From: a virus
Strand: one strand, 5' to 3'
IMG/VR virus record: IMGVR_UViG_3300037560_000135
Location: 1 to 48,448 of that record
DNA: 48,448 nucleotides
In this document: one piece after another, positions 1 to 48,448 of the stretch
Layout: every line of letters begins with the position of its first letter
Position numbering within the stretch: the stretch's first letter is position 1
Position numbers and translations under genes: made by a program
The notes under the pieces: model-generated
The model's input: the letters and a program-made list of their open reading frames with translations, nothing else
Told to the model about the DNA's origin: nothing
The model's database searches: none

Positions 1-127
1 GAGGACAGGATTCGACAACATGTCTATTTTGGGCTTTGCGTGAATTTGATGAAGTGTTCGCAATAGGATTTGATTATGGGCAAAAGCATGTAAAAGAAAT
101 TGAGCAAGCGGCTTTAATTGCAAAAAA
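1..127. repeat. Direct terminal repeat, copy 1 (assembly overlap)
   Basis: These 127 bases are identical to 48322-48448. A perfect overlap of 127 bases is the signature of a circular contig closed by a de Bruijn assembler at k=127, so it is probably not a biological terminal repeat. The genome should be read as circular or circularly permuted, about 48,321 bp long, cut within queC. Confidence 0.95.
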
Positions 128-12206: not shown

Positions 12207-12421
12207 AAGCAGGAGATATTTGGATATGTTCAATATGTAAAACTGAAATTGTATGTGATGACTGGGGGGTAAAACATAGCGTTCCTGGTCATTCGATCAA
12301 CTTTCGCAAAGAGCATGCAGGGCACAGAGATAGCGCAAAGCAAATAGGATTTTCGAAGCAAGAATTTGACGCTATTCAACTAGTAAAATCAAAAGACAAA
12401 CAACAAACGAGTATGTTTTAA
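12203..12421 (+). CDS. Small zinc-finger protein
   Basis: The 72-residue protein has a CSIC knuckle (about 9-12), a third cysteine at 18, and several histidines (KHSVPGHS, KEHAGH), compatible with one zinc site. The C-terminus ends in KQQTSMF. It is the last plus-strand gene before the convergent tail-chaperone genes; the stop codons of the two strands overlap. Confidence 0.5.
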   Translation: MKAGDIWICSICKTEIVCDDWGVKHSVPGHSINFRKEHAGHRDSAKQIGFSKQEFDAIQLVKSKDKQQTSMF

Positions 12422-12804
12422 ATCGGTGAAATAGGAGTTTTTGGTTTCGTGCTGTTTTTGAGTTTTCGTTCAATATTATTCTTGAAAGTGTAGAACTTGA
12501 TTATACTTATTTCATACACATTTACGCTGTAATGCGTTTGTATTTCTGCGAACATATCAGCGATGTTTTGTTCATAAGTATTCGTGAAGCTATCTGGATC
12601 GTGAGGGCTGAAGCTTATGACATTGTCAAATTCAGACAGCTTTTTTTCAATCTGCCCCATTGTTAATATAAGACTTTTGCGCTTTTTCTCGTCTTCTTCG
12701 ATCATTAAAGAGCCGATACAAATTATATATTGCTGTCTAACGTTGTATATTTCTTCAGAATTGTCAATTTTTAAGAGCTTTCGCTTACGAAGTTGGGCAT
12801 CAAT
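12418..12804 (-). CDS. Frameshift extension of the tail assembly chaperone (gpT-like)
   Basis: On the minus strand a -1 shift on the A10 run at 12813-12804 moves the ribosome from the upstream gene into an open frame that runs, with no stop, for 128 codons to 12418. It includes the ORF that would otherwise start at the ATG at 12705. The predicted fusion is about 262 residues. The C-terminal segment VYEISIIKFYTFKNNIERKLKN resembles gpT-like extensions. Lambda gpG/gpGT and many siphoviruses use the same device at the same place next to the tape measure gene. The slippery tract and the open -1 frame are seen; expression is inferred. Confidence 0.75.
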   Translation of the reverse strand: MDAQLRKRKLLKIDNSEEIYNVRQQYIICIGSLMIEEDEKKRKSLILTMGQIEKKLSEFDNVISFSPHDPDSFTNTYEQNIADMFAEIQTHYSVNVYEISIIKFYTFKNNIERKLKNSTKPKTPISPI

Positions 12805-13205
12805 TTTTTTTTTACTGCATTTATAACGGGCGTTAAATGCTCTAATCTTAAACCTTTTTCCTTCAGTTCTTTGATTCTTTTAGTTATCGCAATGTCTGAA
12901 TAATCAGTGATCACTTGGTCATCAATCGAGTAGAACAAAATAGATAGACATGGAGAAGCTAAATCCACATTGTTGAGCGCATTGTGAAATGCTATTTGCA
13001 TGTTCCTAACTTGAGATAATGCATCCTCTTTATTCCCTCTGCTTATTTGTTGCGCTAGACTTGAGAAGTAAAGCGGTAAGTTATCAACAGTAATGCCAAT
13101 GCATAATGTGAATAAGTATAAAAACCTGAACCATCTTTCCGCGGGTAGTTGGTCAGCATTGTCGATGACTTGAATCGTTGTCTTTTCTAGCTTAATTGTG
13201 TACAT
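12771..13205 (-). CDS. Tail assembly chaperone (gpG-like)
   Basis: This is a 144-residue helical protein on the minus strand. The order of motifs (AERWFRFLYLFTLCIGI, then a segment like NKEDALSQVRNMQIAFHNAL) matches the short gene upstream of tape measure genes in Bacteroidota siphoviruses. Such proteins coat the tape measure during tail assembly. Near its 3' end ten A residues in the coding strand allow a -1 shift into the 12418-12804 frame. The orientation is odd: it is divergent from the tape measure gene instead of co-directional. A promoter-like site faces it at 13266-13235. Confidence 0.7.
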   Translation of the reverse strand: MYTIKLEKTTIQVIDNADQLPAERWFRFLYLFTLCIGITVDNLPLYFSSLAQQISRGNKEDALSQVRNMQIAFHNALNNVDLASPCLSILFYSIDDQVITDYSDIAITKRIKELKEKGLRLEHLTPVINAVKKKLMPNFVSESS

Positions 13206-13234
13206 AATTTTGTAAATTACCGTTTGTTATGGTG

Positions 13235-13266
13235 CTAAGTTAGTACGATCTAAAAGTAAATACAAA
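13235..13266 (-). promoter_or_regulatory. Minus-strand promoter for tail chaperones
   Basis: Read on the minus strand: TTTGTA (13266-13261), 18 bases and TAACTTAG (13242-13235). The box order and spacing match the plus-strand family. The leader before the chaperone ATG contains AACAAAC. Confidence 0.5.
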
Positions 13267-13271
13267 AAAAC

Positions 13272-16200
13272 ATGCCAGAAGAAAAGCCGTTTGATTTTGA
13301 TGAGATCATGCTAATTGGTGATGGAGTCCGGAAAGCAATAGCAGAATTTACCAAGCTAGAAAAAGCAGTTGATAAAAGTGTCAGCAATATATCTACTTCT
13401 CTGGGTAAGTTTGTAAAAGACATGGAGTCTATAAAAAGCGAAATAAGCGAGAATATAGAAGAAACTAAGAAGCTTAGTAAATTCACAGACCAACAAAACA
13501 CTAAGTTAAATCAAGCGTCAACAGATGTTAGCAAACTCAGTAAGGAGTATAATGATAATTCAAAAGCACAAAAAGAGGCTAAAATTGCAGTTGATACGCT
13601 TAGTAATAGCTTGAAAGATCAGAAGGAAAAAGTTAAGATACTTCAGAAGGAATACGAAGAACTTGATCCAGCTATTGATGGCAACGAGCAAAAAATGAGG
13701 CAATTGTCTAAGCAAATTGTACGGACGAGAGTTGATATCAAAAAGATGAGCGATGCTACTAAGCGCATGAACGCCACGTTCGATGATTCAGAAGGTAGCT
13801 ATAATCGATTAATAGCATCTAACAAAAGAATTAAGGAAATACTCCGCAAACTTCCGCCTGAGTTCATTGAGACTAACAAGAGAGCACAGCAACTTAAAAA
13901 GACATTCAATGAAAATAGTGATGCCCTCAAGAAATTTGACAAATCATTGGGCGAGAATTTTAGAAACATAGGAAACTATGGAACTGCGCTTGACAAGATG
14001 AATGGATTAGCTGTAGGAAGTATAAAAGCATTAGGCGCGCTAGGATTAGCGGGTGCGTTTGCAGCAGGCGCGAAAGCAATATTTGACCAAACTAAGCAGT
14101 TAGAGAAAAACAAAGTTGTTTTAGCAAAATTAACAGGAGCGGGAGGCAAGGATTTAGACGCTTATGCAGCGAAAGCAACTGCGGTCGCTAAAGTGTTTGA
14201 CGCTGAATTTACAGAAGTAGCGCGAGCAACAAACGTATTAATGGAGAGTTTTGGCGAAAGCGGTTCGAACTCACTTGACATAATAGAGCAGGCTTTGATA
14301 AGAGGGGCAGACGTTCAAGACGATTTCCTCGAACAGATAATAGAATATTCATTATTCTTCAAAGAAGCGGGCTTGAATGCTCAAAATATGGTTGATGTTC
14401 TTATTGCAGGCGAAGATAAAGGAATCTTCAGTGATAAAGCACTCGACACAGTGAAAGAAGCTTCTATCAGAATAAGAGAGATGCCGCAAAGTACAAAAGA
14501 CGCTATTGATGCGCTCGGCATAAGTTCTGACCAATTGCAGAGAGATTTGGCAAACGGTAGTAAAACAGTATTTGAAGCCATCCAAGAAGTTTCAACCGAG
14601 ATGGGTAAGCTACCTGAGCAATCAGCTACAGTCGGAACAGCGATAGCAGACATATTTGGTGGAGCGGGTGAAGATGCAGGATTAGCGTTTATCTTAACGC
14701 TTAAAGACATCACGAACGAAACCGACAAATGGAAAGACAGCTTAACTGACACACAGAAAGCCACAATGGCTCTAATTGACAGCGAAGAGAATTTAAACGC
14801 TGAATTGATCGCGCTCGGGACATCGTTCAACACTACTGGGAACGTGATTAAAGCAGCGTTCAACAATATACTAGCAGGAACGCTCAGTTTGTTAGCCGAC
14901 ACTATTGACGCATTTACAAAAACAGAAAACGTATTAGACTCATTTAAAAAGGAATTAGCCAAAACTGGTGATATTGCTATTCTGACAGCGGAATTGGTTA
15001 AGCTTAAAAAAGAAGTTAACGATCCAAGTGCGTTTGACAGGTTCAAAACTGGATTCATTGCAGCATTTGGCGGGGTTTCAACAGTCGCGAAGGGAGCAAT
15101 AGAAGACATATTGAAAATAAAAGCATTACAAGACCGTATAGCTGAAGTAAACGAAGAGGCAGCAAAAGCGGAAATTAAGTTATCGAAAGAAGTTGCGGCA
15201 GCTAAAGGAAAAGACGCTCAGGACGTGGCGAGAAGACAAAGACAAGCAGCGCGAGATTTGGCGCAATTTCAATTGGAGCAGCAAATCAGGCTATTAGAAG
15301 AAACGAAAACGAATGAGGAAAACTCAATCAGCGAGCGTATCGCAGCCGCTAATCTTATAGTCCAAAAACAAATAGAAATAGCCGAACTAGGTAAAGAAGG
15401 TCAATTGGATGTAGCTAAAAAGTTCTTTAAGGAAGAAAAAGACTTAATTGACGCTCAATTGGAGGATACAGTGATGCAAGCAGAGAAGGCAGGCGAAGAC
15501 TTCGCCAACGCGCTGTTTGATTCTGCCAAAATAGCAGCGGCAGAAGGTGATTTCGCTCAAATACTAGGACAACGTAAAGCAATTCAATTAGATGTCATAG
15601 AGACTGCTAAAAATGAGGAATTGAAGCTAATTGAAGAGAGCAACATGAGCTTCCGAGAAAAAGAGCAGGAGCGTTTTGATGTTGAAGAAGAATTCAGACG
15701 TAAATCACTAGAAAGGGAGCTATTCTTCCTTAAAAAACAATTAGCATTAGCTAATATCAGCACTGTTGAACGTGTCTCGATAGCTAAAGAGATCAGCGCG
15801 GTTGAATTAGAGCTTTCAAGAGACACAAACGAGCAAAAAACCATTGACGTTCGAGCATTTGTAGACGCTGCAATATCAATCCAAGAAGCATTATTTGAAT
15901 CTTCTCAATTACAGCTTGAGAGAGAGATTGAAGCACTTGACATGAAGATGGAGCGGAATGAAGCGGCACTTGATAGAGAGTTGGAACTGGCGGGTGACAA
16001 CGAAGCAGCTAAAGCACTCATTAAACAGCAATTTTTCGAAGAAGAGAAGAAGCTAGAAAAAGAGAAGAAGAAATTGCTCCGAGAAGCAGCACAAGCGCAA
16101 AAGAAAGCGAGTATTTTTGCTGCGGTTATCAACATAGCGCAAGGTGTTACGGCAGCATTAGCCTCCTCTCCTCCACCATTTAACATCATATTAGCAGCTA

Positions 16201-16787
16201 TAACAGGAGCAGCGGGAGCGATACAAATAGGCACTATATTATCAACACCATTGCCAGCATTTGCAGAAGGCGTGAAATCAGCGCCAGGCGGAAAATCAAT
16301 CGTTGGAGAAAGAGGAACGGAATTGTGGGTTGATAAGAAAAAAGGAGAAGCTGGTTTAACACCAAGCGTAGCTACAGTTGTAGACTTACCAAAAGGGGTT
16401 GAAGTGTTTGACGCTCAAACCACAAAGCGCATGCTTCAGAATCCAGAACAACTCGAATCTAGTATATCAGCGAGTGAGTCAAGCAAGACAGCGAGTAAAG
16501 AAAATGCGATGCTTAGTCATTATAAAAAGAAGTACTTAGAAAGCCGAGTAGCACAACCGCCACAACAGCAACAAATTGATTATGACCGATTAGGGAAAGC
16601 AGTTGCCAGAAACCTACCCCCTACTCAAATATGGGAGATAGGGAACGATAATCGAGTCAAATTCAAAACTAGAGATAGCAGCGGTAATACAACTGAATTG
16701 AAGCATAAAGAAACTGACTTCATTCACAAGAAAAACCCAATAGTTCAAAGATTATCAGAGATAGAGAAAGAATTAAAGATTAAATAA
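13272..16787 (+). CDS. Tail tape measure protein
   Basis: The 1171-residue protein sets tail length, which suggests a tail of roughly 170 nm by the usual 1.5 Å per residue. An N-terminal coiled coil (about 20-200) leads to a PhageMin_Tail/TP901-like domain (about 230-500; SLDIIEQALIRGADV, then GTAIADIFGGAGEDAG). Long coiled coils follow (about 620-960). A hydrophobic region (about 945-990: IFAAVINIAQGVTAALASSPPPFNIIL) may insert into the membrane during DNA injection. The C-terminus is Gln/Lys-rich. It is transcribed away from its chaperones. Confidence 0.92.
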   Translation: MPEEKPFDFDEIMLIGDGVRKAIAEFTKLEKAVDKSVSNISTSLGKFVKDMESIKSEISENIEETKKLSKFTDQQNTKLNQASTDVSKLSKEYNDNSKAQKEAKIAVDTLSNSLKDQKEKVKILQKEYEELDPAIDGNEQKMRQLSKQIVRTRVDIKKMSDATKRMNATFDDSEGSYNRLIASNKRIKEILRKLPPEFIETNKRAQQLKKTFNENSDALKKFDKSLGENFRNIGNYGTALDKMNGLAVGSIKALGALGLAGAFAAGAKAIFDQTKQLEKNKVVLAKLTGAGGKDLDAYAAKATAVAKVFDAEFTEVARATNVLMESFGESGSNSLDIIEQALIRGADVQDDFLEQIIEYSLFFKEAGLNAQNMVDVLIAGEDKGIFSDKALDTVKEASIRIREMPQSTKDAIDALGISSDQLQRDLANGSKTVFEAIQEVSTEMGKLPEQSATVGTAIADIFGGAGEDAGLAFILTLKDITNETDKWKDSLTDTQKATMALIDSEENLNAELIALGTSFNTTGNVIKAAFNNILAGTLSLLADTIDAFTKTENVLDSFKKELAKTGDIAILTAELVKLKKEVNDPSAFDRFKTGFIAAFGGVSTVAKGAIEDILKIKALQDRIAEVNEEAAKAEIKLSKEVAAAKGKDAQDVARRQRQAARDLAQFQLEQQIRLLEETKTNEENSISERIAAANLIVQKQIEIAELGKEGQLDVAKKFFKEEKDLIDAQLEDTVMQAEKAGEDFANALFDSAKIAAAEGDFAQILGQRKAIQLDVIETAKNEELKLIEESNMSFREKEQERFDVEEEFRRKSLERELFFLKKQLALANISTVERVSIAKEISAVELELSRDTNEQKTIDVRAFVDAAISIQEALFESSQLQLEREIEALDMKMERNEAALDRELELAGDNEAAKALIKQQFFEEEKKLEKEKKKLLREAAQAQKKASIFAAVINIAQGVTAALASSPPPFNIILAAITGAAGAIQIGTILSTPLPAFAEGVKSAPGGKSIVGERGTELWVDKKKGEAGLTPSVATVVDLPKGVEVFDAQTTKRMLQNPEQLESSISASESSKTASKENAMLSHYKKKYLESRVAQPPQQQQIDYDRLGKAVARNLPPTQIWEIGNDNRVKFKTRDSSGNTTELKHKETDFIHKKNPIVQRLSEIEKELKIK

Positions 16788-16820: not shown

Positions 16821-16848
16821 GTAAGTAACAAGATGTTTACTATTATTG
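16818..16848 (+). promoter_or_regulatory. Phage promoter TTTGTA-N17-TATTATTG (P2)
   Basis: TTTGTA (16818-16823), 17 bases and TATTATTG (16841-16848) give a perfect match to the family. The leader after it contains ACAACAAACAA. Confidence 0.8.
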
Positions 16849-16866
16849 TACAACAAACAATTTAGC

Positions 16867-17076
16867 ATGATTCTAACCATAGAAACCAAGTATAATATTG
16901 GTGACATAGTGTATCTAAAGACTGATCCAGAGCAATACGCAAGACTCGTATTCGCGCTTCAAATACTTCCTGGTAGCAATATTGCATATATTTTAACGCT
17001 AGGAGATTTTACCAGCTCTCACTATGCTGTTGAAATATCAAGCAAAATCAATGTTGAACTTAAAACTAGAAGTTGA
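16867..17076 (+). CDS. Hypothetical small beta-rich protein
   Basis: The 69-residue product starts at the ATG at 16867; an earlier in-frame TTG lies inside the promoter. The phrase YNIGDIVYLKTDPEQYARLV suggests a small barrel of a type widespread in Bacteroidota phages, without a known role. It is the first gene of an operon that runs through the tRNA region, and it overlaps the next gene by one base. Confidence 0.6.
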   Translation: MILTIETKYNIGDIVYLKTDPEQYARLVFALQILPGSNIAYILTLGDFTSSHYAVEISSKINVELKTRS

Positions 17077-17372
17077 TGGCTACTAGAAGAGACCAGCTAA
17101 AATCACAAGACTTGATAAAAAACGAGCCGCTAGAATGCATAAACTGCCATTCTTATATGACACTAGAAAAACGGTTGAAGAACGGGAAGGGAAGACATGG
17201 TCCGCACAGAAAAAGAAGGTTTGTGTGTGAAGAATGCGGTCACAGTGAGTTAATACATGCAGAAGGCAATAAAGATTTAGGAATTTATAAGAAACAAGAG
17301 CGAGAGCTTAAACAAGACATGAAAGCTCAATTGTTCGATTATGATGGACATAAAAAAAAGCAATTAACATGA
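17076..17372 (+). CDS. Zinc-ribbon protein
   Basis: The 98-residue basic protein contains two CxxC knuckles (CINC, about 22-25; CEEC, about 51-54) separated by a Lys/Arg/His-rich loop. This is a probable zinc ribbon binding nucleic acid. It is coupled to the upstream gene by one base and to the next by ATGA. Confidence 0.6.
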   Translation: MATRRDQLKSQDLIKNEPLECINCHSYMTLEKRLKNGKGRHGPHRKRRFVCEECGHSELIHAEGNKDLGIYKKQERELKQDMKAQLFDYDGHKKKQLT

Positions 17373-17584
17373 CAGATTTCAGCCCTAAAAGAGTCCGTAT
17401 ACAAGTGTATGATCACACAGTCTCAAAATTCAAGAGCGAGCTAATGAAAAACGGCTTTATAGCAAGTTCAAAACCATTCACGAAAGATACTAGCTATGTC
17501 ACAATCCTTACACGTGCTGATAAGATAGAGTTGCTTAAGAAGATTTGCATGAAATGTGAAATAGATGTAAAACAGAAGAATTAA
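17369..17584 (+). CDS. Hypothetical protein
   Basis: The 71-residue basic alpha/beta protein (strand RVRIQVYDHT, then helix) has two C-terminal cysteines (ICMKCE). No family is recognised. It overlaps its neighbours on both sides, so it is translated within the operon. Confidence 0.55.
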   Translation: MTDFSPKRVRIQVYDHTVSKFKSELMKNGFIASSKPFTKDTSYVTILTRADKIELLKKICMKCEIDVKQKN

Positions 17585-17751
17585 TGAGTGAACAAACAGC
17601 AAAAATAAAATTTAAACTAGGTTTAGCAGCAGGCCAATTGATTTTAATGATGGAAAAAAACAAAGAAGAAATGAGTAACCTGCAAGGGATAGCTAAATCA
17701 GCAGGCTTTATTATTAATGAAATCACTGGTGAAGTAACCGAGCGTGATTAA
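17584..17751 (+). CDS. Hypothetical small helical protein
   Basis: A 55-residue protein whose ATG shares one base with the stop upstream. It is mostly helical (KFKLGLAAGQLILMMEKNKEEM) with a short final ITGEVTE hairpin. No known motif. The tRNA-like gene starts 7 bases after its stop. Confidence 0.55.
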   Translation: MSEQTAKIKFKLGLAAGQLILMMEKNKEEMSNLQGIAKSAGFIINEITGEVTERD

Positions 17752-17757
17752 ACAAAT

Positions 17758-17837
17758 AGTGTGGTGGCGCAACTGGAGACGCTTTAGCTGATCCCTAAAA
17801 TTCGTAAGAAATGCAGGTTCGAGTCCTGCCCATACTA
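17758..17837 (+). tRNA. tRNA-like gene with a long variable arm, anticodon unclear
   Basis: Acceptor AGTGTGG pairs with CCATACT (7 pairs, one G-T). The D stem is GCG/CGC, the anticodon stem TTTAG/CTAAA around CTGATCC, the variable arm about 13 bases, and the T arm GCAGG-TTCGAGT-CCTGC. By the U33 rule the anticodon reads GAT (Ile), but base 37 is C and no base 26 separates the D and anticodon stems, both unusual. The variable arm suggests a Leu/Ser-type (class II) molecule. No CCA is encoded. It is either a divergent phage tRNA or a decaying one. Confidence 0.7.
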
Positions 17838-17852
17838 CAAACTTAGAAGGAA

Positions 17853-17913
17853 GGGAGAAACAACATTCATTTGTTCCTCTTGATCGATCATTGTAACGAT
17901 GATAGTTTCTCCC
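17853..17913 (+). ncRNA. Structured RNA element after the tRNA
   Basis: GGGAGAAAC (17853-17861) is perfectly complementary to GTTTCTCCC (17905-17913). The 43-base interior can form AACA/TGTT and ATCAT/ATGAT hairpins, giving a three-way or four-way branched shape of 61 bases. There is no T-run afterwards. It may be a small RNA, a processed tRNA remnant or a 5' UTR control element for the gene at 17934. Confidence 0.5.
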
Positions 17914-17933
17914 GTAATGATTAAACAAACAAT

Positions 17934-18146
17934 ATGGAAAACGCAATTGAAGTACTACAAGAAGAAATATTCAAGCGCATTGGTAAAACAGTCGCTATAA
18001 AAGAGCAAGACGTTACCGATGCCGTGAAGTCTCACATGACTGAAGTGTGGCAAAAAGAAGCTAACGGATTCTCTAAAGCTATTGAAGCTATTCAGAATGC
18101 ACAAGAGCCAAAAGAGCCAAAGTCAAAAATAATCACTATGTCATGA
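17934..18146 (+). CDS. Hypothetical small helical protein
   Basis: The 70-residue protein is mostly helical and ends in EPKEPKSKIITMS. The leader is TTAAACAAACAAT. It overlaps the next gene by ATGA. I do not recognise it. Confidence 0.55.
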   Translation: MENAIEVLQEEIFKRIGKTVAIKEQDVTDAVKSHMTEVWQKEANGFSKAIEAIQNAQEPKEPKSKIITMS

Positions 18147-18358
18147 GCACTGAGAAAAAGCATGTAGCTATTATCACTCCATCATTCAGACACTTTAACG
18201 AATGGGTTAAAGAAAACGCAGTTGAAGGAGAACGGTACACTATTGTAAGAAACATCGCTGATGTATTTGGACGCGAATTTGATCTGATTAGGTACGGAAT
18301 CAAACACGGACAAGTTGATGAAGATGTAATTGAAGCAGCAAAACGAAGACTAGTATGA
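18143..18358 (+). CDS. Hypothetical small protein
   Basis: The 71-residue alpha/beta protein contains HVAIITPSFRHFNEWV and IADVFGREFDLIRYG. The pattern recurs in flavobacterial phages but has no assigned role that I know of. It is coupled to both neighbours by 4-base overlaps. Confidence 0.55.
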   Translation: MSTEKKHVAIITPSFRHFNEWVKENAVEGERYTIVRNIADVFGREFDLIRYGIKHGQVDEDVIEAAKRRLV

Positions 18359-18540
18359 AAAAACCAACAAACAAAACGTTTGAAAACGACATCGAAAAGC
18401 GCATACACCGATCTGAAGACGAAGGATTAGATGAATTAATCGAGTCATACGAGAAAAGAGGTCGAGAAGGTCTTTTAGTGCTGTGTGCATTACTTGGAGC
18501 CGCTGTATACGCTGTGTTGCATCATTTCATAGTTCATTAA
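18355..18540 (+). CDS. Small tail-anchored membrane protein
   Basis: The 61-residue protein has a charged N-terminal helix (1-38) and one C-terminal membrane segment (about 39-58, LLVLCALLGAAVYAVLHHFI), so it is probably anchored in the inner membrane with the charged part in the cytoplasm. Function is unknown. Confidence 0.6.
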   Translation: MKKPTNKTFENDIEKRIHRSEDEGLDELIESYEKRGREGLLVLCALLGAAVYAVLHHFIVH

Positions 18541-18551
18541 ACAAACAAACA

Positions 18552-18734
18552 ATGAGTGAAAATAAAAAGACAATATACAACTTAGAGTTGCACGAATGTT
18601 TAGACACTGGATTCGGCATGTGTATAATGAGAGTCGCGAGTGGATGGCTTTACGATTGTTGGGACTATGATAATGATTGTCCTCAAAAAGGAACATTTGT
18701 ACCATTTGACAATAAATTTCAAAGCGATGAGTAG
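18552..18734 (+). CDS. Hypothetical small phage protein
   Basis: The 60-residue protein starts at the ATG after AAACAAACAAACA. It contains GWLYDCWDYDNDC and a closing GTFVPFDNKFQ, a conserved-looking beta-rich pattern seen in Bacteroidota phage small proteins. Four cysteines may bind metal. It overlaps the YopX-like gene by 8 bases. Confidence 0.6.
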   Translation: MSENKKTIYNLELHECLDTGFGMCIMRVASGWLYDCWDYDNDCPQKGTFVPFDNKFQSDE

Positions 18735-19140
18735 AGAAATCAAATTTAGAGCGTGGGACACTAAAGCAAACAACCCACAAGGAAGAGGCTTAAAAGGCGT
18801 GATGCTTTGCGATGAGTGGTTGAAAGATCATCCGAAAACACTCATGTACCTTATGAAAGTCGAGACTAATGAAACGTATTTAATGCAATTCACTGGACTC
18901 AAAGACAAGAACGGGGAAGAGATATACGAAGGGGATATATTATTAGTAAAAGGAAACGCTAAGATTACTAAAAAAGAATATCTAAATCAAAAATACAATG
19001 TAGAATGGGATAAAACTCATGGTAATTGGTTTATGAAACCACACAAACGAATGCCCGACAACTCAATATTTATCCCTCATATAAGTTTATATGCTGAAGT
19101 AATCGGAAACATACACCAAGACCCTCAACTACTTAAATGA
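18727..19140 (+). CDS. YopX-like protein
   Basis: The 137-residue product starts with the YopX hallmark REIKFRAWD and has the second hallmark LMQFTGLKDKNGEEIYEGDILL (about 59-80) and an AEVIGNIHQDPQLL end. YopX proteins are very common in phages of Gram-positive bacteria and Bacteroidota. Their role is not known. The ATG at 18727 is chosen because the conserved domain begins there. Confidence 0.85.
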   Translation: MSREIKFRAWDTKANNPQGRGLKGVMLCDEWLKDHPKTLMYLMKVETNETYLMQFTGLKDKNGEEIYEGDILLVKGNAKITKKEYLNQKYNVEWDKTHGNWFMKPHKRMPDNSIFIPHISLYAEVIGNIHQDPQLLK

Positions 19141-19301
19141 CGTATTTACAATTAACGCATCTTGCCAGAATCTACAGAGCTAAGTACTACCATTATAAAG
19201 AGAGAGGATTAGGATCTATTGCTTATTGCTTTGGAGCTAAACTTCTCAAAACAGTTAATGAGCTTAGAGAGATGGATAAGCAAATTGGAATGCACACTTA
19301 A
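19137..19301 (+). CDS. Small basic protein
   Basis: A 54-codon ORF overlaps the YopX-like stop by ATGA. The peptide is basic and helical with Tyr clusters (RIYRAKYYHYKERG). No family is recognised. Confidence 0.5.
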   Translation: MTYLQLTHLARIYRAKYYHYKERGLGSIAYCFGAKLLKTVNELREMDKQIGMHT

Positions 19302-19321
19302 TTAACACCAATATCAACATT

Positions 19322-19939
19322 GTGATAGAATTAACAAACGAAGACAATATGCAACTAATGGCTAGATACGAAGATAATCACTTTGATCTAGCTATTGTTG
19401 ATCCTCCTTATGGGATAAATATAAATATAAGTATGGGTAGAAGAAAAGGCAACAAAAAAAGTGGTTATCATAAATTTGCTGGAAGTGATTCATGCATACC
19501 GTCTACAGATTATTTCAAAGAACTAAAAAGAGTATCTAAGAATCAGATAGTATGGGGGGGTAACTACATGACAGAACATTTAGAGCCTAGTCCATGTTGG
19601 ATTCTTTGGGATAAAGGATTCTCTGAAGATGTCACTTTTGCTCAGTTTGAAATGGCTTGGACTTCTTTTAAATCAAGTGCAAAGAAATACGATAAGCACC
19701 CTAGCCAACAACATAGAATACACCCAACACAAAAACCTGTAAATCTATACGAGTGGACTTTGGATAAGTACGCCAAAGAAGGCGACAAGATACTCGACAC
19801 TCATTTAGGCTCAGGAAGCATAGCAATAGCATGCCACAACCGTAAGTACGATTTAACAGCGTGCGAACTAGACAAGGAATATTTCGACTTGAGTATTAAA
19901 AGGTATGAATTAGTTACTTCGCAAAAGAGATTATTTTAA
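19322..19939 (+). CDS. Orphan DNA adenine-N6 methyltransferase (beta class)
   Basis: The 205-residue enzyme has motif IV DPPY (27-30) before motif I DTHLGSGS (159-166), which is the beta-class order. HPTQKP (134-139) is typical of these enzymes. They transfer a methyl group from S-adenosylmethionine to the N6 of adenine (less often N4 of cytosine). No restriction nuclease adjoins it, so it probably protects phage DNA or marks it. The start is a GTG at 19322. It is a second modification system beside the 7-deazaguanine genes. Confidence 0.88.
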   Translation: MIELTNEDNMQLMARYEDNHFDLAIVDPPYGININISMGRRKGNKKSGYHKFAGSDSCIPSTDYFKELKRVSKNQIVWGGNYMTEHLEPSPCWILWDKGFSEDVTFAQFEMAWTSFKSSAKKYDKHPSQQHRIHPTQKPVNLYEWTLDKYAKEGDKILDTHLGSGSIAIACHNRKYDLTACELDKEYFDLSIKRYELVTSQKRLF

Positions 19940-20068: not shown

Positions 20069-22612
20069 ATGCCTGAAACTATTTACAGCCAAAAAGATGC
20101 CTTTTTCCTCGAAATAGACGGATTTGACTTGAAAATAAGAGAACCACAGCTATGGAGTAAGGTCGAAGCGTCAATTTCAAGGAACTTGAAGACTCATGGT
20201 GTAGATGTCAATTTTCCTTCCAAAGATAGCCCTCTTGAATACTCAGATGACCCCGATGAAGAGTCTGGATTAAGATCAAAAACCCTCATTGACAACGTAT
20301 TTAACACTAAAGGCCCTGATGGAGACATAGTGATCAAGTTTGGTACTTGGGATGGTGTAACGTTCACAGAAATTACCAGACAAAAGATTGATCTCAGCAA
20401 GGGATACGAGAACGGTTTACATCTCACAAAAGCTAGCGTCACAAATCTATCAGCTAAACAGCGTATTTTAGATCACATTGACACACCAGTCAACTTAGAT
20501 GACATAGAAGATATTCTGGGCGTTACTTTGTCAGGGGCACCAGCACCACTACCACAAGAGAATATTAATCTACACAGCCAAGTATTAATTAAAATCACAG
20601 AGCAGACTAATCCTAACCAAACTATATCTGACGGTATTGAATATGACATAAATGATGGTTCTTTTGGTGATTTTAAGACATATTTCTTGCAATACGCGTT
20701 TCAAGACAAAATTAAATCAGATGGATTTGAAGATTTTAACATCCCTAACGGCATAAGTGCATTAGACCCTATTGCTAACCTTAAAGCTAACTTTAGAGCA
20801 GAGGTGTCTGGAACGATCACAATCAACGCCCCAACTTCGTTAAAAGCTTTGTTGAATCTTGATATTGGTGTTGGGTTTAATGTAATTGGTAATTATACAA
20901 CATATATTAAAGTAGGTACACAAGCTAATCAACGTGAATTTATAATAGGTTCAGGGGCTATCAATATTATAACGTCAGCAGCCATAGAAACAATAAATAC
21001 TCAAGCAGAGGTTGACACTGATTTTGAAATACCGTATGTGGTTAAAGGTGATTATGTATGGATATACACATTGGTAGATATATCAGGAGGGTCTGGTGCT
21101 AAAGTGTCGTCAGTTCAGTTTCGACACGGATTTTTTAAAGTACCCCCTACCGCTCCATTTGATAAATTTCATGACCAACAAATACAAATGACATTTGATA
21201 CTTATGCTTCTGCAAGTGTTAACCCTGCATACAGATTAGTAGATGCGATAAGATACATGTTTTATGTGCTCACAGGCGACAACGATACCTTTAAAGTTGA
21301 TAGCTTTTTTGATTCGTTAGGCGCTGGATACGACTTTCACTTTTTAAACGGTTATCTTCTTAGATCGATAAACACACAGAACAAGCGACCATCAATCAAT
21401 GCAGAAGAATTGTTCGAGTCTGTGAACATGATGTGGGGATTAGGGCAAAACATAGAAATCGACAATGATGGGAATGTGAATGTGGTGTGGGAAGAGGTTG
21501 AGCATTTTTACCAAGACCACGAAGTGCTCGACTTATCAGATAATACGTGGAATTTCAGGATAGTATCAAATAAAGAATCTTCGATCAATACAGTTAAATT
21601 TAGTTATCCTCGACTAAGTGTAAGGGAGACAGACGGAGGTGGATCGATTGACGCTATCAATACAGAGATACAATCATCGCTGCCACTTGAGACAGGACGT
21701 AAAAAATACAGTAAGCGCAATAACTTAAGAACGGAAGGATATGAAATTGAATCAGCAAGACGTACATCAGTAATTGACAAAGAAAGTGTAAACACAGATG
21801 AAGACGGATTTGTGATTAATACTAAAGAGTTGTTTACGTTTGCGACTATTGTCACATTCAACGAAGAGTTTAAACAAATCACCATACCAGAGTCGGCATT
21901 TGAGTTCTTCAGAAGAGTAGGACGATTAGATATCACAGGCACAGCAAGCAATAATATCACAATCACGTATGACATTGATAATCTAGTAGTCGAATCAGGC
22001 CCTATTCTAAAGATAGTTGTGAATGAAGACTTAGTGGATGAAGTTAATATCAATTCAACATTCACTGCTACTGGTTCACTTAGTAAGCAAAATGAAGACT
22101 TTGATAAGACTGTATTCGTAGATGGATTGACAGAAACAGCTAAAGACGATAATTACAATGTCATCTTACAGCCAATGCGAACACTGATTCAGCATAGTAA
22201 ATGGGTGAATCAAGCAGTGGTACAAAAAGTCAAAACGCTATTGTACAAGACATTGAAGCACTTGAACGCTGATAACTTCAGGTCACAGCTAAACGTTGGT
22301 GCTACACACGTATATGGAGACATAGGGAGAGTTGAAGTGTCACCGCAAGACAGTATCGCTATAGAAGATTGCTATGAGGGTAAGTCAATTATAACCAATC
22401 GCAGATTTATGTTTAGTGCAGAGATATCAAGAGAACAGTTTGCACTATTGACAGAATCACAGAGAGGGCAAGGAGCGACTCCTTACGGCTATATTAGCAC
22501 ACGTAACAATGACGGTGAGAAAGTGTCCGCGTGGATTATAGATGTATCTGGCGAGCCGAACGAAAACACTTATGATTTAATACTAGCAGAGAAAGGAGAT
22601 TTTTATGGCTAA
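20069..22612 (+). CDS. Large tail/baseplate protein
   Basis: The 847-residue product is rich in beta strands, and lies between the tape measure region and a receptor-type protein. The order resembles that of the tail-associated baseplate-hub (Tal-like) protein of Bacteroidota siphoviruses. The N-terminal part (1-150) has the EIDGFDLKIREPQLWSKVE style of hub domains, and a middle helix-strand zone (about 370-460; YMFYVLTGDNDTFKVDSFFDSLG) follows. I see no catalytic motif. It overlaps the next gene by 8 bases. Confidence 0.6.
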   Translation: MPETIYSQKDAFFLEIDGFDLKIREPQLWSKVEASISRNLKTHGVDVNFPSKDSPLEYSDDPDEESGLRSKTLIDNVFNTKGPDGDIVIKFGTWDGVTFTEITRQKIDLSKGYENGLHLTKASVTNLSAKQRILDHIDTPVNLDDIEDILGVTLSGAPAPLPQENINLHSQVLIKITEQTNPNQTISDGIEYDINDGSFGDFKTYFLQYAFQDKIKSDGFEDFNIPNGISALDPIANLKANFRAEVSGTITINAPTSLKALLNLDIGVGFNVIGNYTTYIKVGTQANQREFIIGSGAINIITSAAIETINTQAEVDTDFEIPYVVKGDYVWIYTLVDISGGSGAKVSSVQFRHGFFKVPPTAPFDKFHDQQIQMTFDTYASASVNPAYRLVDAIRYMFYVLTGDNDTFKVDSFFDSLGAGYDFHFLNGYLLRSINTQNKRPSINAEELFESVNMMWGLGQNIEIDNDGNVNVVWEEVEHFYQDHEVLDLSDNTWNFRIVSNKESSINTVKFSYPRLSVRETDGGGSIDAINTEIQSSLPLETGRKKYSKRNNLRTEGYEIESARRTSVIDKESVNTDEDGFVINTKELFTFATIVTFNEEFKQITIPESAFEFFRRVGRLDITGTASNNITITYDIDNLVVESGPILKIVVNEDLVDEVNINSTFTATGSLSKQNEDFDKTVFVDGLTETAKDDNYNVILQPMRTLIQHSKWVNQAVVQKVKTLLYKTLKHLNADNFRSQLNVGATHVYGDIGRVEVSPQDSIAIEDCYEGKSIITNRRFMFSAEISREQFALLTESQRGQGATPYGYISTRNNDGEKVSAWIIDVSGEPNENTYDLILAEKGDFYG

Positions 22613-25600
22613 TTTTGTATTACTAAAAAACCTAGTAAGCAATCCGAACGTATCTGGAGAGCTTAATAATGGATTCAGTTGGATTCAGAAAAACAATGAA
22701 GTCTGGTGCAGTGAGAAAGGGCGCATAAATTACTCTAGTGATTTCGGTGTGTCTTTCATCAATGTATACAATACTGACTCAGTTAGTCCTGGTAGTAAGG
22801 ATGAAGACATTTGGCTGTATGAGCACAACGATGAAATTTTTTCAACAGGGAATGAAGTAAAGACGGGCAATGAATACCATTTTAGAAAGTGGAATACGTT
22901 CACGTTTGATAATTTGCTCGAAGTTGTAGTTGCCAATGCGCCGATAACTTATCTCGCTAATGTCGAATTCAGCTCAAAGCATTATATAGTCGTACTAGAA
23001 CTAGGCACTACAAATGATATCAAGATATACGAGCAGTCAGGCGATACGATCAGTTTACTGCAAACGATAGTAGGTGCGGGCGCTAGTGTTCCAGTTATAG
23101 CAATCTTTGAGTTTCAAAACGATCTGTATTTGTTGTACCAGATCGGGTTTACTGATTCAGAAATGTTCAAGCTCGTAGGAGCTAGTTTTGTGTCTCAATT
23201 TACAACAGGAGGGATATTATTTGCAGCTGGTGAGTTTGGTGCTGATGCTTATTACTACGAAAGAAGCTCAAGAGACATCGGAACGATCAATATGGTCACT
23301 GGTGCATTGACACCTATTACAACAATTGCAGAAGCCGCACAGAGCTTTGAACGATCATACTTTAGAGAAGTATCAGGAGATTTTAATTTGATCATTGGTA
23401 CAGCGGTAAATATAGGTGCTGGATCAAGAGTTTACGTGTATGCGTTCAACGGAGCTATATTCACTAAGACGTATGAAAAGACAAATAGCCAAATTGGTGA
23501 TGCAGTTGAAACGGCAAGTAAAATAATCATAGGGCAGATAGGCAATGAGTTCTTTGAAAATGAGTGTAACATCTTTTATGAAGGATTTAGCTCGACTAAC
23601 GAAACTAATGCAAACACTGATGATGGAACGATCACTCATGATGTTAATACAGATAATGCGGTCGGAACTGTAGAATACAGGTTGCTAGATCAATTTGAAG
23701 TTGAAGTTGTAACATGGCAAGTGGCAGCACTATTTGAGAACCTTGTACCAGGCGTGTATTTGCTTGAAGCACGTGATGACGATTGTTCTACGAGGTTCAG
23801 CGTACAAGTAAGCATATTAGAGTTTCAATCTAGTCCACTTGAACAGCAAGCGTCAAGAAGTAGAGACTATCTCAACAGTCCAAACTTCACTAGGTATCGT
23901 CAAATATTTGGCATGACGTTGAGCGACTTTCAAGCGTTGAATGGTGAATTACCACCACCAATAGACGAGGTGCTACCTGTAATTCCTGAAACATTTGTTT
24001 ATTCAGTGACAGTTGGTGCTGCGGAAACAATCTCATTGCCGATGTTAAGTGGTGATGATTCACTATATGATTTTACAGTGAATTTCGGAGACGGAACAGG
24101 AGACAAAACAGTAACCGCCTACGCTGACCCTGATAGACAACATACTTATGCAGGTGCAGGGACTTTTGATATAATTGTTAAAAGAGTGTTTGATTACATA
24201 TTATTTGCTGATTCACCTGATTCAATCGTAGAATTGAAATCTTTCAATCCAGCTGGAGTAGGAGAAGATTCGTTTTTAGATTGCTCAAATCTTATTAAAA
24301 TAAGTGCTATTAATATTCCTTCCCTCATTCGCTTGAACAATTTGAATGGATGTTTTATGAACTGTTCCGCATTAGTCGTTGTAAACATATCTATAAACAG
24401 TTGGAACGTTAGCGCGGTGACTGATATGGCGTCAATGTTTGATGGTGCAACATTTTTTAATCAAGCTGTAGATGGATGGGATGTAGGTGCAGTTACTACT
24501 ATGAGTAGTATGTTTAGAAATGCTTCAGCTTTTAATCAATTATTGAATTCATGGAATGTTGCTGCCGTTACGAATATGAGTAGCATGTTTAGATTCACAA
24601 GTGCATTTAATGGAAATATAATATCTTGGAACGTTGGATTAGTTACTACTATGTCTAATATGTTTGAAGGTGCAACAGTATTTAATCAAAATATTGATTC
24701 TTGGAACGTTGGAGCAGTGACTAACATGTCAACCATGTTTAGTGACGCGACACTATTCAATAGGAACATAGGCTCTTGGAACGTTGGAGCGGTTACGAAT
24801 ATGAGTGTGATGTTCGATGGCGCAATAGCGTTCAATCAATCGCTTAATTCTTGGGATGTGAGCGCAGTTATTAACATGAGCATTATGTTTAGAAATGCCA
24901 ATGCTTTTAATGGAGCAATTGGCGCATGGGTTGTGAGCGCAGTTACCAACATGTCAAGTATGTTCGATGGCGCAGATGTGTTCAATCAATCATTAAATTC
25001 ATGGGATGTCAGCATAGTGACTAATATGGGTATTATGTTCAGAAGTTGCCCATTATTCAATGGAGACATTAGCAGTTGGAACGTTGGCGCAGTAACCAGC
25101 ATGGCTTCAATGTTTAGATTTTGCACAGTATTTAATGTAGACATAAGCTCTTGGAATGTTGGAGCTGTGACAATAATGTCAAACATGATTGAAAGTTGTA
25201 CCGCATTTAATCAAGACATTAGCGGTTGGAATGTGGGTAATGTAACAACAATGGCTTCTATGTTTGCTAACGCCACCGCGTTTGATCAAGATATTAGCTC
25301 TTGGAATATTACGTCCATAACAACAATGGCGAGCATGTTCCTTAATGTGACATTATCGACACTTAATTATGATGCGATTTTGGATGTTAATACGGGTTGG
25401 CCGTCTCAAGCTGTTTTAAGTAGCGTTTCTTTTCACGCTGGTAACTCAACATACACACAAACTGCCGTTGATAGCGGAACTACAGACGCGACAACAGCGA
25501 ATAAACTAGTAGATAGTACACAGAATTTCTTAACTACTGTTTCAATTGGAGACATAGCACACAATACAACTGATGGAACATTTGGCAAAGTCACAGCTAT

Positions 25601-25745
25601 TGATTCAGACACGACATTATCAGTAAGTAATGATGTATTCCCAACAGGAAAAGCATATGTGATACAAAGTTCTGATGCTGCAAAAGGAAGATTTGAATTA
25701 AGCGATACAAATAGTTGGACAATAACAGATGGAGGAGCAGTTTAA
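22605..25745 (+). CDS. BspA/DUF285-repeat tail surface protein
   Basis: The 1046-residue protein has an N-terminal beta-rich domain (about 1-320), a PKD-like domain (about 465-530; VNFGDGTGDK...HTYAGAGTFDIIVKR), then 13 tandem 25-residue repeats (about 598-923) of the form SWNV--VT-MS-MF--A--FNQ-I. These are BspA-like/DUF285 repeats, known from surface adhesins of Mycoplasma, Bacteroidota and Firmicutes. A C-terminal region (about 925-1046) closes it. In a phage the likely role is host or surface binding at the tail tip. Repeat number is a natural site for expansion and contraction. Confidence 0.82.
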   Translation: MANFVLLKNLVSNPNVSGELNNGFSWIQKNNEVWCSEKGRINYSSDFGVSFINVYNTDSVSPGSKDEDIWLYEHNDEIFSTGNEVKTGNEYHFRKWNTFTFDNLLEVVVANAPITYLANVEFSSKHYIVVLELGTTNDIKIYEQSGDTISLLQTIVGAGASVPVIAIFEFQNDLYLLYQIGFTDSEMFKLVGASFVSQFTTGGILFAAGEFGADAYYYERSSRDIGTINMVTGALTPITTIAEAAQSFERSYFREVSGDFNLIIGTAVNIGAGSRVYVYAFNGAIFTKTYEKTNSQIGDAVETASKIIIGQIGNEFFENECNIFYEGFSSTNETNANTDDGTITHDVNTDNAVGTVEYRLLDQFEVEVVTWQVAALFENLVPGVYLLEARDDDCSTRFSVQVSILEFQSSPLEQQASRSRDYLNSPNFTRYRQIFGMTLSDFQALNGELPPPIDEVLPVIPETFVYSVTVGAAETISLPMLSGDDSLYDFTVNFGDGTGDKTVTAYADPDRQHTYAGAGTFDIIVKRVFDYILFADSPDSIVELKSFNPAGVGEDSFLDCSNLIKISAINIPSLIRLNNLNGCFMNCSALVVVNISINSWNVSAVTDMASMFDGATFFNQAVDGWDVGAVTTMSSMFRNASAFNQLLNSWNVAAVTNMSSMFRFTSAFNGNIISWNVGLVTTMSNMFEGATVFNQNIDSWNVGAVTNMSTMFSDATLFNRNIGSWNVGAVTNMSVMFDGAIAFNQSLNSWDVSAVINMSIMFRNANAFNGAIGAWVVSAVTNMSSMFDGADVFNQSLNSWDVSIVTNMGIMFRSCPLFNGDISSWNVGAVTSMASMFRFCTVFNVDISSWNVGAVTIMSNMIESCTAFNQDISGWNVGNVTTMASMFANATAFDQDISSWNITSITTMASMFLNVTLSTLNYDAILDVNTGWPSQAVLSSVSFHAGNSTYTQTAVDSGTTDATTANKLVDSTQNFLTTVSIGDIAHNTTDGTFGKVTAIDSDTTLSVSNDVFPTGKAYVIQSSDAAKGRFELSDTNSWTITDGGAV
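24399..25373 (+). repeat. Thirteen 75-bp coding repeats
   Basis: Thirteen units of about 75 bases encode the 25-residue DUF285 repeats. Nucleotide identity between units is partial, with TTGGAACGTTGG and ATGTTTAGA phrases recurring. They are in phase with the reading frame and therefore are protein repeats, not CRISPR. Confidence 0.85.
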
Positions 25746-30616: not shown

Positions 30617-31177
30617 ATGCAATACATTACAAGGAAAGGAAATTTCGATAGCGCGCACCGCGTTATGAATGAGAAAATGAAGTGCTTTCAGATCCACGGG
30701 CACACATACTTATTTGAATTAACATTTGAGTTTGAATCAATTTCAACGATTGGTTACGCTATTGATTTCAAAGAGATTAAGCGTGTAGCATGTCAGTGGA
30801 TTGATGACTTACTAGACCATGGAGTCATTTGTAATCCGCATGACGACATTATGATTAAAGCGGCAAAGGATTTGAAGTCTAAAACGTGGGTCATGTCTTT
30901 AAATGGTATAGGGCAATATTGTAATCCAACTGTTGAGAACATTGTGAAAGAAATATTCTTAGCTATGCGGGTATTATTTGAAAACAATTATGTTGAAAGC
31001 GGGTTAAAAATCCATCACGTCAAATTGTATGAAACACCAAACTGTTGGACTGATTGCTATTATGAGTCAATCAATGAGTCAGAAGAAAAAAACTTCAACA
31101 TAATGCGCAGGCCATTAGTCCTTAGATACGCTGAGGAGAAAGGCATAGTTGATTACAGCGATTCATCAAGCCAATAA
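30617..31177 (+). CDS. queD: 6-carboxytetrahydropterin synthase QueD
   Basis: The 186-residue protein has the QueD/PTPS core. Zinc ligands are His14 (FDSAHR) and His27/His29 (CFQIHGH), the catalytic cysteine is Cys23, and LDHGV (66-70) carries the catalytic His68. The C-terminal KLYETPNCW has the substrate-binding glutamate. QueD turns dihydroneopterin triphosphate, made by FolE, into 6-carboxytetrahydropterin, the substrate of QueE. It lies about 16 kb from queE/folE/queC, between terminase and head genes. The length is above the usual 120-130 because of an insertion after the HGH motif and a C-terminal tail (about 155-186). Confidence 0.9.
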   Translation: MQYITRKGNFDSAHRVMNEKMKCFQIHGHTYLFELTFEFESISTIGYAIDFKEIKRVACQWIDDLLDHGVICNPHDDIMIKAAKDLKSKTWVMSLNGIGQYCNPTVENIVKEIFLAMRVLFENNYVESGLKIHHVKLYETPNCWTDCYYESINESEEKNFNIMRRPLVLRYAEEKGIVDYSDSSSQ

Positions 31178-40579: not shown

Positions 40580-42469
40580 ATGTCAAAAATAATAAACAAT
40601 TTACCTGCTTCTGTTGAATTTGTTGATAGTAATGGGGATGAACAATCGTTTCCAAAAAACTTAAGTCATACTGAATTTGTCAATTCTATTGTAAAAATCA
40701 CGTCTAGCGCATTCTCAATATCTGTAACAGATATTACGCAAATTACGTCAATAGACGATGATGGAACCCCGGTTGCTGTGCCTGCTGATCTTTCTGGATT
40801 ATATGATGTATTAAAGGGTTTTTTTTTTCGTGATTTAGTAGCACCAGCACCCGGTATGCCTTTAAATGTCGTAGAGGTATTTACTGAGGCTAATTTCGGT
40901 ATTGTTGATCCTGGTGTAAAAATTGATGTCACTCCAGACGTGCGATTTAAATTAATGAATCCGGTTACAGTAACGCTACCTAATATAATAGCTACTGGTG
41001 CCAACATGGAAATCGTCACAACTAGTCGATCAGAAAATTTTATAACCTATACAAATGTAAGCGAGCCGATGTTTCAAGGGGTAGATATTGGAACCCTTGC
41101 CGTGTTTGACACTGTTATAGAAGGAAATAATACGGGATCACTTCTTGATATTGATGGCGGTGTGATTAGTTTTAAATTCCCTGATTTTAATGGTTGGGAC
41201 AATCTGGGCACAGTTAAAAATCTTACTGACTTTTTCGCTCCTGGCGTTGTTTTTGATACTATTAATGGAGGTCTTAGTTTGACAGACTGTGAGAGCGCGA
41301 CTATTGTAGATTGTTTAATATTCGCGGCATCAAATACATTTAACTTTTTTGAAATAGCTGGCAGAAATTCAGGGAATATTCAAATCTATGATAATATCAT
41401 GATTCATGATGCTCTTACTAAATTTTGCCGTTTAGATCCTGGGTTTAATAGTCTTGCTAGATTTGTAATGCGGGGCAATAATGTGAGGCCGGGGCAACTT
41501 TTTGATGTATCAGGTGCTACAGGTACATTTACAGCAGTGGCAGATAATTCAATCGGCGCCACAGGTATAACGAGTGTAAGCGATTCAAGTGGTATAGCTC
41601 AATTTAATCATGCTGGCACCTCTCCTTTGCTTGGCTCAACAGTGACAATATCAGGATTTATTACCAATACCTCATATAATATAACCGGTATCGTATCAGT
41701 TACAGGAGCATCTTCTTTTGAATTAAAAGGCCTGGCATTCGGAACTGATGAAGCAACGGGAAGTTATCTCATGAACGGTATAACGGTAACCTCTGCGGCA
41801 CACGGGCTATCTAATGGTGAAGGTGTAGTTTTAGATGTTGATGGATCAACAGATTATAATGATGGTGGGCACGTAATTTATAATGTACAAACTAATACAT
41901 TTGATGTTGCTGAAGTGTTTACATCAACTCATACGGGTGATTGGAGTACTGAAGGATTAGACCAAAGTAATCAACGAGTATTTTCGGTTAATAATCCAGA
42001 TCAAGACAATACTAAATATGTGGCTACGGCTTTTGTGAACAATAATGCTACAGTAAATGGTGCAATTGTAAATAATACCTTTAGGGACATAACATTTGGA
42101 ACGGGTGGTTCTGCTTTAATTGCAGGATCAACCATGGAAAGATGGAAGCTTATTGATGAAGTTATAGGCATTTTTGAATACACAGGAAATGAACCGTTTT
42201 CAGGGCGTATTACATTTGATGTTACTAGTTTAAGTTCAGGAGGAACTGTAGATTTCCGTTATAAATGGGTACATGATGTAGGTGCCGGCTTTATTGATTT
42301 AGATGATAGTGTAGAGGTAGTACAAAGCGTTGGAGCTTCTTCGGCTAATGCATCGAAAACATTCCCGTTAAACGCAGTTAAAGGAGATCAAATAAAACCG
42401 CAAATTACCAGAAATTCAGGATCAAGCTCGATTACAACACAATATTCAAGCATTTTCATAACCCAATAA
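40580..42469 (+). CDS. Beta-rich virion appendage/fibre candidate
   Basis: The 629-residue protein is rich in Gly, Asn, Thr and Ile with repeating strand patterns (about 110-345 suggests a parallel beta-helix). The middle (about 345-440) has Ig-like segments, and a C-terminal region (about 500-629) resembles a trimerising or virion-attachment domain of beta type. A receptor-binding or surface decoration role is inferred. Host specificity may be set jointly with the BspA-repeat protein. Confidence 0.6.
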   Translation: MSKIINNLPASVEFVDSNGDEQSFPKNLSHTEFVNSIVKITSSAFSISVTDITQITSIDDDGTPVAVPADLSGLYDVLKGFFFRDLVAPAPGMPLNVVEVFTEANFGIVDPGVKIDVTPDVRFKLMNPVTVTLPNIIATGANMEIVTTSRSENFITYTNVSEPMFQGVDIGTLAVFDTVIEGNNTGSLLDIDGGVISFKFPDFNGWDNLGTVKNLTDFFAPGVVFDTINGGLSLTDCESATIVDCLIFAASNTFNFFEIAGRNSGNIQIYDNIMIHDALTKFCRLDPGFNSLARFVMRGNNVRPGQLFDVSGATGTFTAVADNSIGATGITSVSDSSGIAQFNHAGTSPLLGSTVTISGFITNTSYNITGIVSVTGASSFELKGLAFGTDEATGSYLMNGITVTSAAHGLSNGEGVVLDVDGSTDYNDGGHVIYNVQTNTFDVAEVFTSTHTGDWSTEGLDQSNQRVFSVNNPDQDNTKYVATAFVNNNATVNGAIVNNTFRDITFGTGGSALIAGSTMERWKLIDEVIGIFEYTGNEPFSGRITFDVTSLSSGGTVDFRYKWVHDVGAGFIDLDDSVEVVQSVGASSANASKTFPLNAVKGDQIKPQITRNSGSSSITTQYSSIFITQ

Positions 42470-46823: not shown

Positions 46824-46983
46824 CATAAGGAGTGTGCTAGAATCTCACACTTCAAAGAAATCAAGCAAAGCACACCTTAAAAGCTTGCGCGATGTGTACA
46901 CAGAAATAATGATTAGGAATAGAGTAGAAACTAAATTTTTCAATTTAAACAAACAATTTAATGAACCAACTGAAAATCAGTGA
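46801..46983 (+). CDS. Small basic protein
   Basis: The 60-residue basic helical protein starts at the ATG at 46801. It overlaps queE by 23 bases. No family is recognised. Confidence 0.5.
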   Translation: MTTRQLHNIRSVLESHTSKKSSKAHLKSLRDVYTEIMIRNRVETKFFNLNKQFNEPTENQ

Positions 46984-48287: not shown

Positions 48288-48448
48288 ATGAAAAAAAGAA
48301 AAGCAGTAGTCCTTCTATCGGGAGGACAGGATTCGACAACATGTCTATTTTGGGCTTTGCGTGAATTTGATGAAGTGTTCGCAATAGGATTTGATTATGG
48401 GCAAAAGCATGTAAAAGAAATTGAGCAAGCGGCTTTAATTGCAAAAAA
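48288..48448 (+). CDS. queC: 7-cyano-7-deazaguanine synthase QueC, 5' part
   Basis: This is the start of queC, at ATG 48288 after a short AT-rich leader. It carries the ATP-binding PP-loop SGGQDST (11-17). The gene continues at bases 3-638 of the window across the circular join, and the overlap 48322-48448 repeats bases 1-127. See the other part for the rest. Confidence 0.95.
48322..48448. repeat. Direct terminal repeat, copy 2 (assembly overlap)
   Basis: Identical to bases 1-127; see copy 1. Removing one copy makes the queC frame continuous. Confidence 0.95.

Follow-up and report, generated by a model that had tools for sequence, protein, structure and literature searches.

A tail assembly chaperone gene of the Bacteroidota siphophage family phrog_8914, very probably slipping at an A10 tract and encoded on the strand opposite to its tape measure gene

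The window analysed here is the whole 48,448-nt stretch of IMG/VR record IMGVR_UViG_3300037560_000135. A 127-bp direct terminal repeat (window 1-127 and 48322-48448, inside queC) indicates a complete circular genome of approximately 48,321 bp. Searches of viral contigs with the tape measure, terminase and fused chaperone sequences recovered no close relative of the window, and a megablast comparison of 10 kb of it with phages gave no match. On the minus strand, at 12418-13205, lies a real tail assembly chaperone (TAC) gene that very probably contains a slippage site (Table 1). The 72-codon ORF that converges on it has no family match.

Table 1. Features in and around the chaperone gene (window coordinates)
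Feature	Position	Strand	Basis or remark
Zero-frame ORF, short form of TAC, 144 aa, gpG-like	12771..13205	-	ORF; phrog_8914
-1 frame extension, 128 codons + stop, C-terminal half of long form (262 aa, gpG-T-like)	12418..12804	-	phrog_8914; alignment; codon usage
Slippery A10 tract, GT-A10-TTGATG	12804..12813	-	sequence; same codon as A8-A11 of relatives
Possible hairpin GCATTTAACG-CC-CGTTATAAATGC, 24 nt, ending 3 nt before the tract	12817..12840	-	position corresponds to family hairpin
Convergent neighbour ORF, 72 aa	12203..12421	+	stop overlaps chaperone stop by 4 bases
Divergent intergenic region, 66 bp, between chaperone and tape measure starts	13206..13271	.	promoter-like match 13266-13235 (-)
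Tape measure protein gene, divergent from chaperone	13272..16787	+	PF10145 PhageMin_Tail, 1.3e-12; several tape-measure PHROGs

Around the tract the coding strand reads ...GCA GTA AAA AAA AAA TTG ATG..., and both the letters and the position of the ten adenosines (12813-12804) agree with the preliminary description of this DNA. The zero frame begins with an ATG at 13205 and stops at 12771, about 11 codons beyond the tract, and the -1 frame runs uninterrupted from 12879 to its stop at 12418. The two frames are joined by one extra A or by a -1 shift; a +1 shift encounters a TGA at once, such that both frames that do not yield the long form terminate soon after the tract. The claim that the -1 frame stays open for 128 codons, counted from the tract, is borne out and can be extended, as an open stretch of that length has a probability of about 0.0002 under a Markov model of the same base composition. 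In addition, the -1 part resembles the phage's genes in its choice of codons (+0.12 per codon, versus -0.38 and -0.58 for the other two frames). The 250-aa family phrog_8914 matches the zero-frame part over profile positions 1-138 (E 2.5e-19) and the -1 part over positions 121-248 (E 0.007), and this succession across both frames indicates a single gene whose reading passes from one frame to the other. The rarity of the A10 tract was dropped as evidence, because chance alone should produce about two such runs: the window has two A/T runs of ten, compared with 2.2 expected under a second-order Markov model. The second of these is a T10 at 40819-40828, in a 629-aa ORF (40580-42469) where it encodes Phe-Phe-Phe; it may slip or be a chance occurrence.

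By its sequence matches, the gene is the TAC of Bacteroidota siphophages represented by phrog_8914. Matches found by tblastn include proteins of the Croceibacter phages P2559Y and P2559S, and Parabacteroides phage PDS1, and the "tail assembly chaperone" of Elizabethkingia phage TCUEAP2. Joined across the tract, the 262-aa protein can be aligned over its entire length with relatives encoded by a single ORF, at 18-24% identity and with an invariant KK at the junction, and it occupies a very long branch on the tree. Depositors have labelled the relatives tail assembly chaperone, virion structural protein or hypothetical, mostly the latter two. Wherever a phrog_8914 homologue was examined, the tape measure gene comes immediately after it. 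The homologue in phage phiB124-14 is ORF23. The virion proteome of that phage detected only ORF38, 39 and 42 (PMC3338817), and the absence of ORF23 from this set is in keeping with a chaperone that does not remain in the particle. AlphaFold2 models of the short form from the window (pLDDT 84) and of a full-length relative (pLDDT 95) yielded no match in the PDB, and no Pfam family matched the chaperone gene. Thus, the term "chaperone" is based on position, size, two-frame coding and the annotation of relatives rather than on fold, and the window gene probably has the corresponding function.

About 90 further loci of the chaperone family were taken from IMG/VR, and nearly all carry exactly A10 at the same codon, with a range of A8-A11 across the family; the relatives that retain the slippery run include many phages of gut and marine Bacteroidota. 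Family statistics were computed on 43 diverse relatives at less than 70% identity. The tract occupies the same codon in all 43, and each reads AAA AAA AAA there, compared with 51% AAA among lysine codons elsewhere in the same genes (naive log10 P -46, kinship ignored). The codon before the tract never ends in A among these relatives. In most relatives it is GTC or GTT, which places the long protein (247-263 aa) in one frame and makes slippage a truncating event. Stops close behind the tract are correspondingly common: a stop occurs within five codons in the +1 frame in 41 of the 43, compared with 26 expected with synonymous codons and equalled by none of 1000 synonymous sets (kinship ignored), and in the -1 frame in 32 of the 43. 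The preliminary description had held that relatives with the same proteins and no open -1 frame would speak against a chaperone pair. Such relatives are in fact the majority, and yet the tract is kept at the same codon; with A10 retained and the shifted frames closed by stops soon afterwards, a slip would still yield two products, with their roles reversed.

The opposite phase, GT-A10-T, in which the short form is in frame and the long form requires a -1 shift, is found in the window, in the contigs L062 and L063 and in an isolate, Flavobacterium phage 1/32, for which a joined TAC was annotated on deposition (KJ018210, F132_37 / F132_38). Also out of frame are P2559S (A8), L065 (A9), L137 (A9) and BF8P1 (A11). 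On the tree the phase label takes five changes, at least four of which are forced by well-supported branches, and every member of the clade formed by P2559S, L065, L062 and L063 is out of frame (support 100/100). L062 and L063 are 86% identical. Before the tract they differ by 10, 8 and 35 changes at the three codon positions of the zero frame; after it, the corresponding counts in the -1 frame are 13, 5 and 32, so that third positions dominate in each case, a pattern of purifying selection on both frames in this sequence pair. The out-of-frame chaperone of L137 (6001-6725 of that contig) lies on a contig binned as Bacillota, a label that is doubtful because its relatives are Bacteroidota phages.

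These comparisons bear on whether the split in the window could be an assembly or sequencing indel, with a true A11 that would leave the gene as one ORF, the state of the FPSV phages, whose isolates carry GT-A11-TC in frame. The tract is evidently prone to error or to variation, given that the FPSV-D22 record is cut within it and that BF8P1 and BF10P1 are one A apart. Nevertheless, an indel of this kind, which had been named earlier as a way in which the pair could be spurious, is unlikely: the same GT-A10-T phase recurs in the isolate 1/32 and in L062 and L063, and a well-supported clade is uniformly out of frame, so that an assembly error is improbable as a general explanation even though tract length varies. 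Moreover, the family evidence indicates that the tract would slip even if the true length were A11. As to the records themselves, FPSV-D22 (L119/L127, MK764439) is a circular record that ends inside the A tract, so that each end carries A10 and the annotated TAC is truncated; its apparent A20 was rejected as an artefact, the other FPSV isolates having A11. The Bacteroides phage isolates BF8P1 (L140, A11) and BF10P1 (L141, A10) differ in little else over 1.9 kb, and are annotated with two ORFs in one isolate and one ORF in the other.

Immediately upstream of the tract, most in-frame relatives display a hairpin that goes beyond what the protein requires. Over the 36 nt before the tract, the 43 in-frame relatives have a mean folding energy of -9.9 kcal/mol, versus -5.6 for synonymous versions and -6.4 for the best of 200 synonymous sets, and ten control positions show nothing comparable. 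The stem abuts the tract, as in GACCGC...GCGGTC-A10, GATCGGGTT...GACTCGATC-A10 and GACGGGATT...GATTCCGTC-A10. Its positions are paired in 73.6% of cases, compared with 19-41% when the partners are slid, and covary at 0.301 compared with 0.213 after shuffling (reached in 1 of 500 shuffles). Across the family, the sequence downstream of the tract is no more structured than expected, and in the window (z +1.3) no pseudoknot or stem was found that could act as a stimulator. The possible hairpin of the window has a predicted energy of -5.5 kcal/mol and a dinucleotide z of -2.4, and is matched in stability by 12% of synonymous versions, so that it is not significant alone. Hairpins are weaker overall among the out-of-frame members (p 0.0006 for raw energy, marginal at 0.04 after composition correction, n=6). 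Conceivably, a gene whose default product is the short form calls for little slippage, and one in which that form has to arise from slippage calls for much.

Programmed ribosomal frameshifting with a fixed product ratio has its textbook example in tail chaperones. For the present gene, the preliminary description had proposed a gpG/gpG-T pair made as in lambda; a TAC gene with two predicted products joined at A10 is well supported by the evidence above, whereas the ribosomal mechanism is the part toward which the family evidence does not lean. Classic -1 frameshifting by tRNA-Lys at A AAA AAA, as in lambda G/GT and with no part for the polymerase, is a real possibility that falls well short of probable. 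The window and phage 1/32 have its canonical arrangement (short form in frame, long form by -1), pairs of AAA codons are slippery for tRNA-Lys, ribosomal frameshifting operates in the TAC genes of many phages (PMC5009743, PMC3711429), and the window hairpin is weak. However, a downstream stimulator is missing from both window and family, and the long form is the zero frame in most relatives, where +1 stops are enriched that a -1 ribosomal shift would not need. In addition, the conserved structure lies upstream and abuts the tract, at a point where the ribosome would already have melted the stem. A covarying hairpin against the tract, combined with the absence of a downstream stimulator, points instead to slippage by RNA polymerase in the style of Thermus dnaX, which we favour at the level of the family. 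The weakness of the hairpin in the window and its near absence from L062 and 1/32 nonetheless suggest that the ribosome may be what slips within the GT-A10-T group.

The explanation that we consider probable as a whole is that of a single TAC gene in which slippage at A10 gives two products, through a hairpin-A10 element shared by the family and acted upon by RNA polymerase, the gene having been flipped in place in the window. Slippage would produce two proteins sharing 134 residues: the short 144-aa form from the zero frame and the 262-aa form either from a -1 shift of the ribosome or from an mRNA to which RNA polymerase has added one A. The lambda gpG/gpGT pair suggests possible roles for them: coating of the tape measure protein for the short product, and recruitment of tail-tube subunits for the long one. 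The unit conserved across the family would be the hairpin followed by A10, in which a hairpin in the nascent RNA, abutting the 9-10 bp RNA:DNA hybrid, would promote slippage of the polymerase. Both products would then be made whichever frame the DNA encodes, and the reading phase of the DNA would be free to drift, since slippage in the mRNA would feed both frames.

Several described systems share parts of this arrangement. The TAC of Flavobacterium phage 1/32 is the most similar, belonging to the same family and phase and having both a short and a joined long product annotated, but it is on the same strand as its tape measure gene and is only about 20% identical in protein sequence. The phrog_8914 proteins of phiB40-8, phiB124-14, PDS1, P2559Y, TCUEAP2 and the FPSV phages are homologous over their full length and have A8-A11 at the same codon; in contrast to the window, they usually encode the long form in frame, most have a strong abutting hairpin, and none of those examined is inverted. 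Lambda gpG/gpGT (Xu, Hendrix and Duda) likewise has a shared N-terminal part, a long product made by frameshifting and a position beside the tape measure gene, the window products being predictions from sequence. These searches detected no kinship to it in sequence or fold, and the window family differs in its slip element, an A10 homopolymer preceded by a hairpin in most relatives, as the window does in its inverted strand. In Thermus thermophilus dnaX, transcriptional slippage occurs at A9 within a long ORF, and both alternative frames are closed by stops (PMC5009743); most relatives have the same combination of a long product in one ORF, a homopolymer and flanking stops, and A10 is long enough for this type of slippage, which requires at least nine A or T. 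The gene there is a different one, with no hairpin described, and the phase in the window is reversed. The hairpin finds its counterpart in the transposase of a Roseiflexus IS, where a structure immediately 5' of the slip motif exemplifies a layout that promotes RNA-polymerase slippage (PMC5009743), although the motif there is T5C5, the hairpin is essential and the gene is a transposase.

The chaperone gene of the window occupies the expected place just upstream of the tape measure gene, but is inverted. All other window ORFs with a family match in these searches are on the plus strand, like the tape measure gene. The earlier assertion that the pair lies on the strand opposite to the tape measure gene, unlike in nearly all siphoviruses, withstood a comparison of gene order: TAC and tape measure are on one strand in all 85 relatives with enough downstream sequence. 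This uniformity, and the lack of any close relative that could confirm the flip, would also be expected if the strand change were a misassembly and the chaperone were really co-oriented with the tape measure gene. That explanation is very unlikely, given that the record closes into a circle through its terminal repeat, that strong inverted repeats, which might have misled an assembler, are absent around the gene, and that the junctions are those of ordinary neighbours, with overlapping stops on the convergent side and a divergent gap of unremarkable length. Inversion by way of flanking inverted repeats was also considered and rejected, as there are only weak, chance-like pairs around the gene.

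Because the whole gene is flipped in place, the chaperone and tape measure genes cannot lie on one transcript, and the dose of the chaperone relative to the tape measure would thus be set separately, as follows logically from the strands. A candidate promoter, TTTG-N20-TAACTTAG, differs by one mismatch from the pattern of Bacteroidota promoters; it is one of 11 loose matches to that pattern in the genome. A scan of the 66-bp intergenic region for sigma-70 promoters or terminators found none.

A more general proposal, which we advance tentatively and rate a little short of probable, is that there is a class of Bacteroidota siphophages that make their chaperone by polymerase rather than ribosomal slippage at a hairpin-A10 element, with a DNA phase that is free to drift (at least four switches), and that in the window, where the gene has left the strand of the tail operon, the ratio of chaperone to tape measure is set by two transcripts. 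This kind of gene is already known, and the frameshift itself is already annotated in phage 1/32. Neither a conserved hairpin-A10 element with free reading phase nor an inverted tail chaperone was found reported in the literature searched, which lay mostly outside subscription journals. If the proposal holds, the slip site is kept while the default product is flipped, and an upstream hairpin makes the product ratio settable at transcription; it would also explain why the gene is annotated in gut phages as a single "hypothetical" or "virion structural" ORF, with the second product hidden. The inverted copy, for its part, offers a natural experiment on whether the chaperone and the tape measure need a common transcript.

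Other features of the genome are of separate interest. Between the tape measure gene and the next tail gene (16846-19939) are small ORFs, a tRNA-Ile(GAT) at 17758-17837 and a DNA-methylase-like ORF. Further along the tail region, 22605-25745 encodes a 1046-aa protein containing arrayed DUF285 repeats (PF03382, E 1.9e-125), perhaps a receptor-binding or host-surface protein. Elsewhere, the ORFs at 3-638, 682-1107, 30617-31177, 46961-47710 and 47707-48264 comprise QueC, QueF-like and GTP cyclohydrolase I proteins, identified by Pfam, and QueD-like and QueE-like proteins, recognized by eye; they outline a 7-deazaguanine pathway, possibly serving DNA modification.
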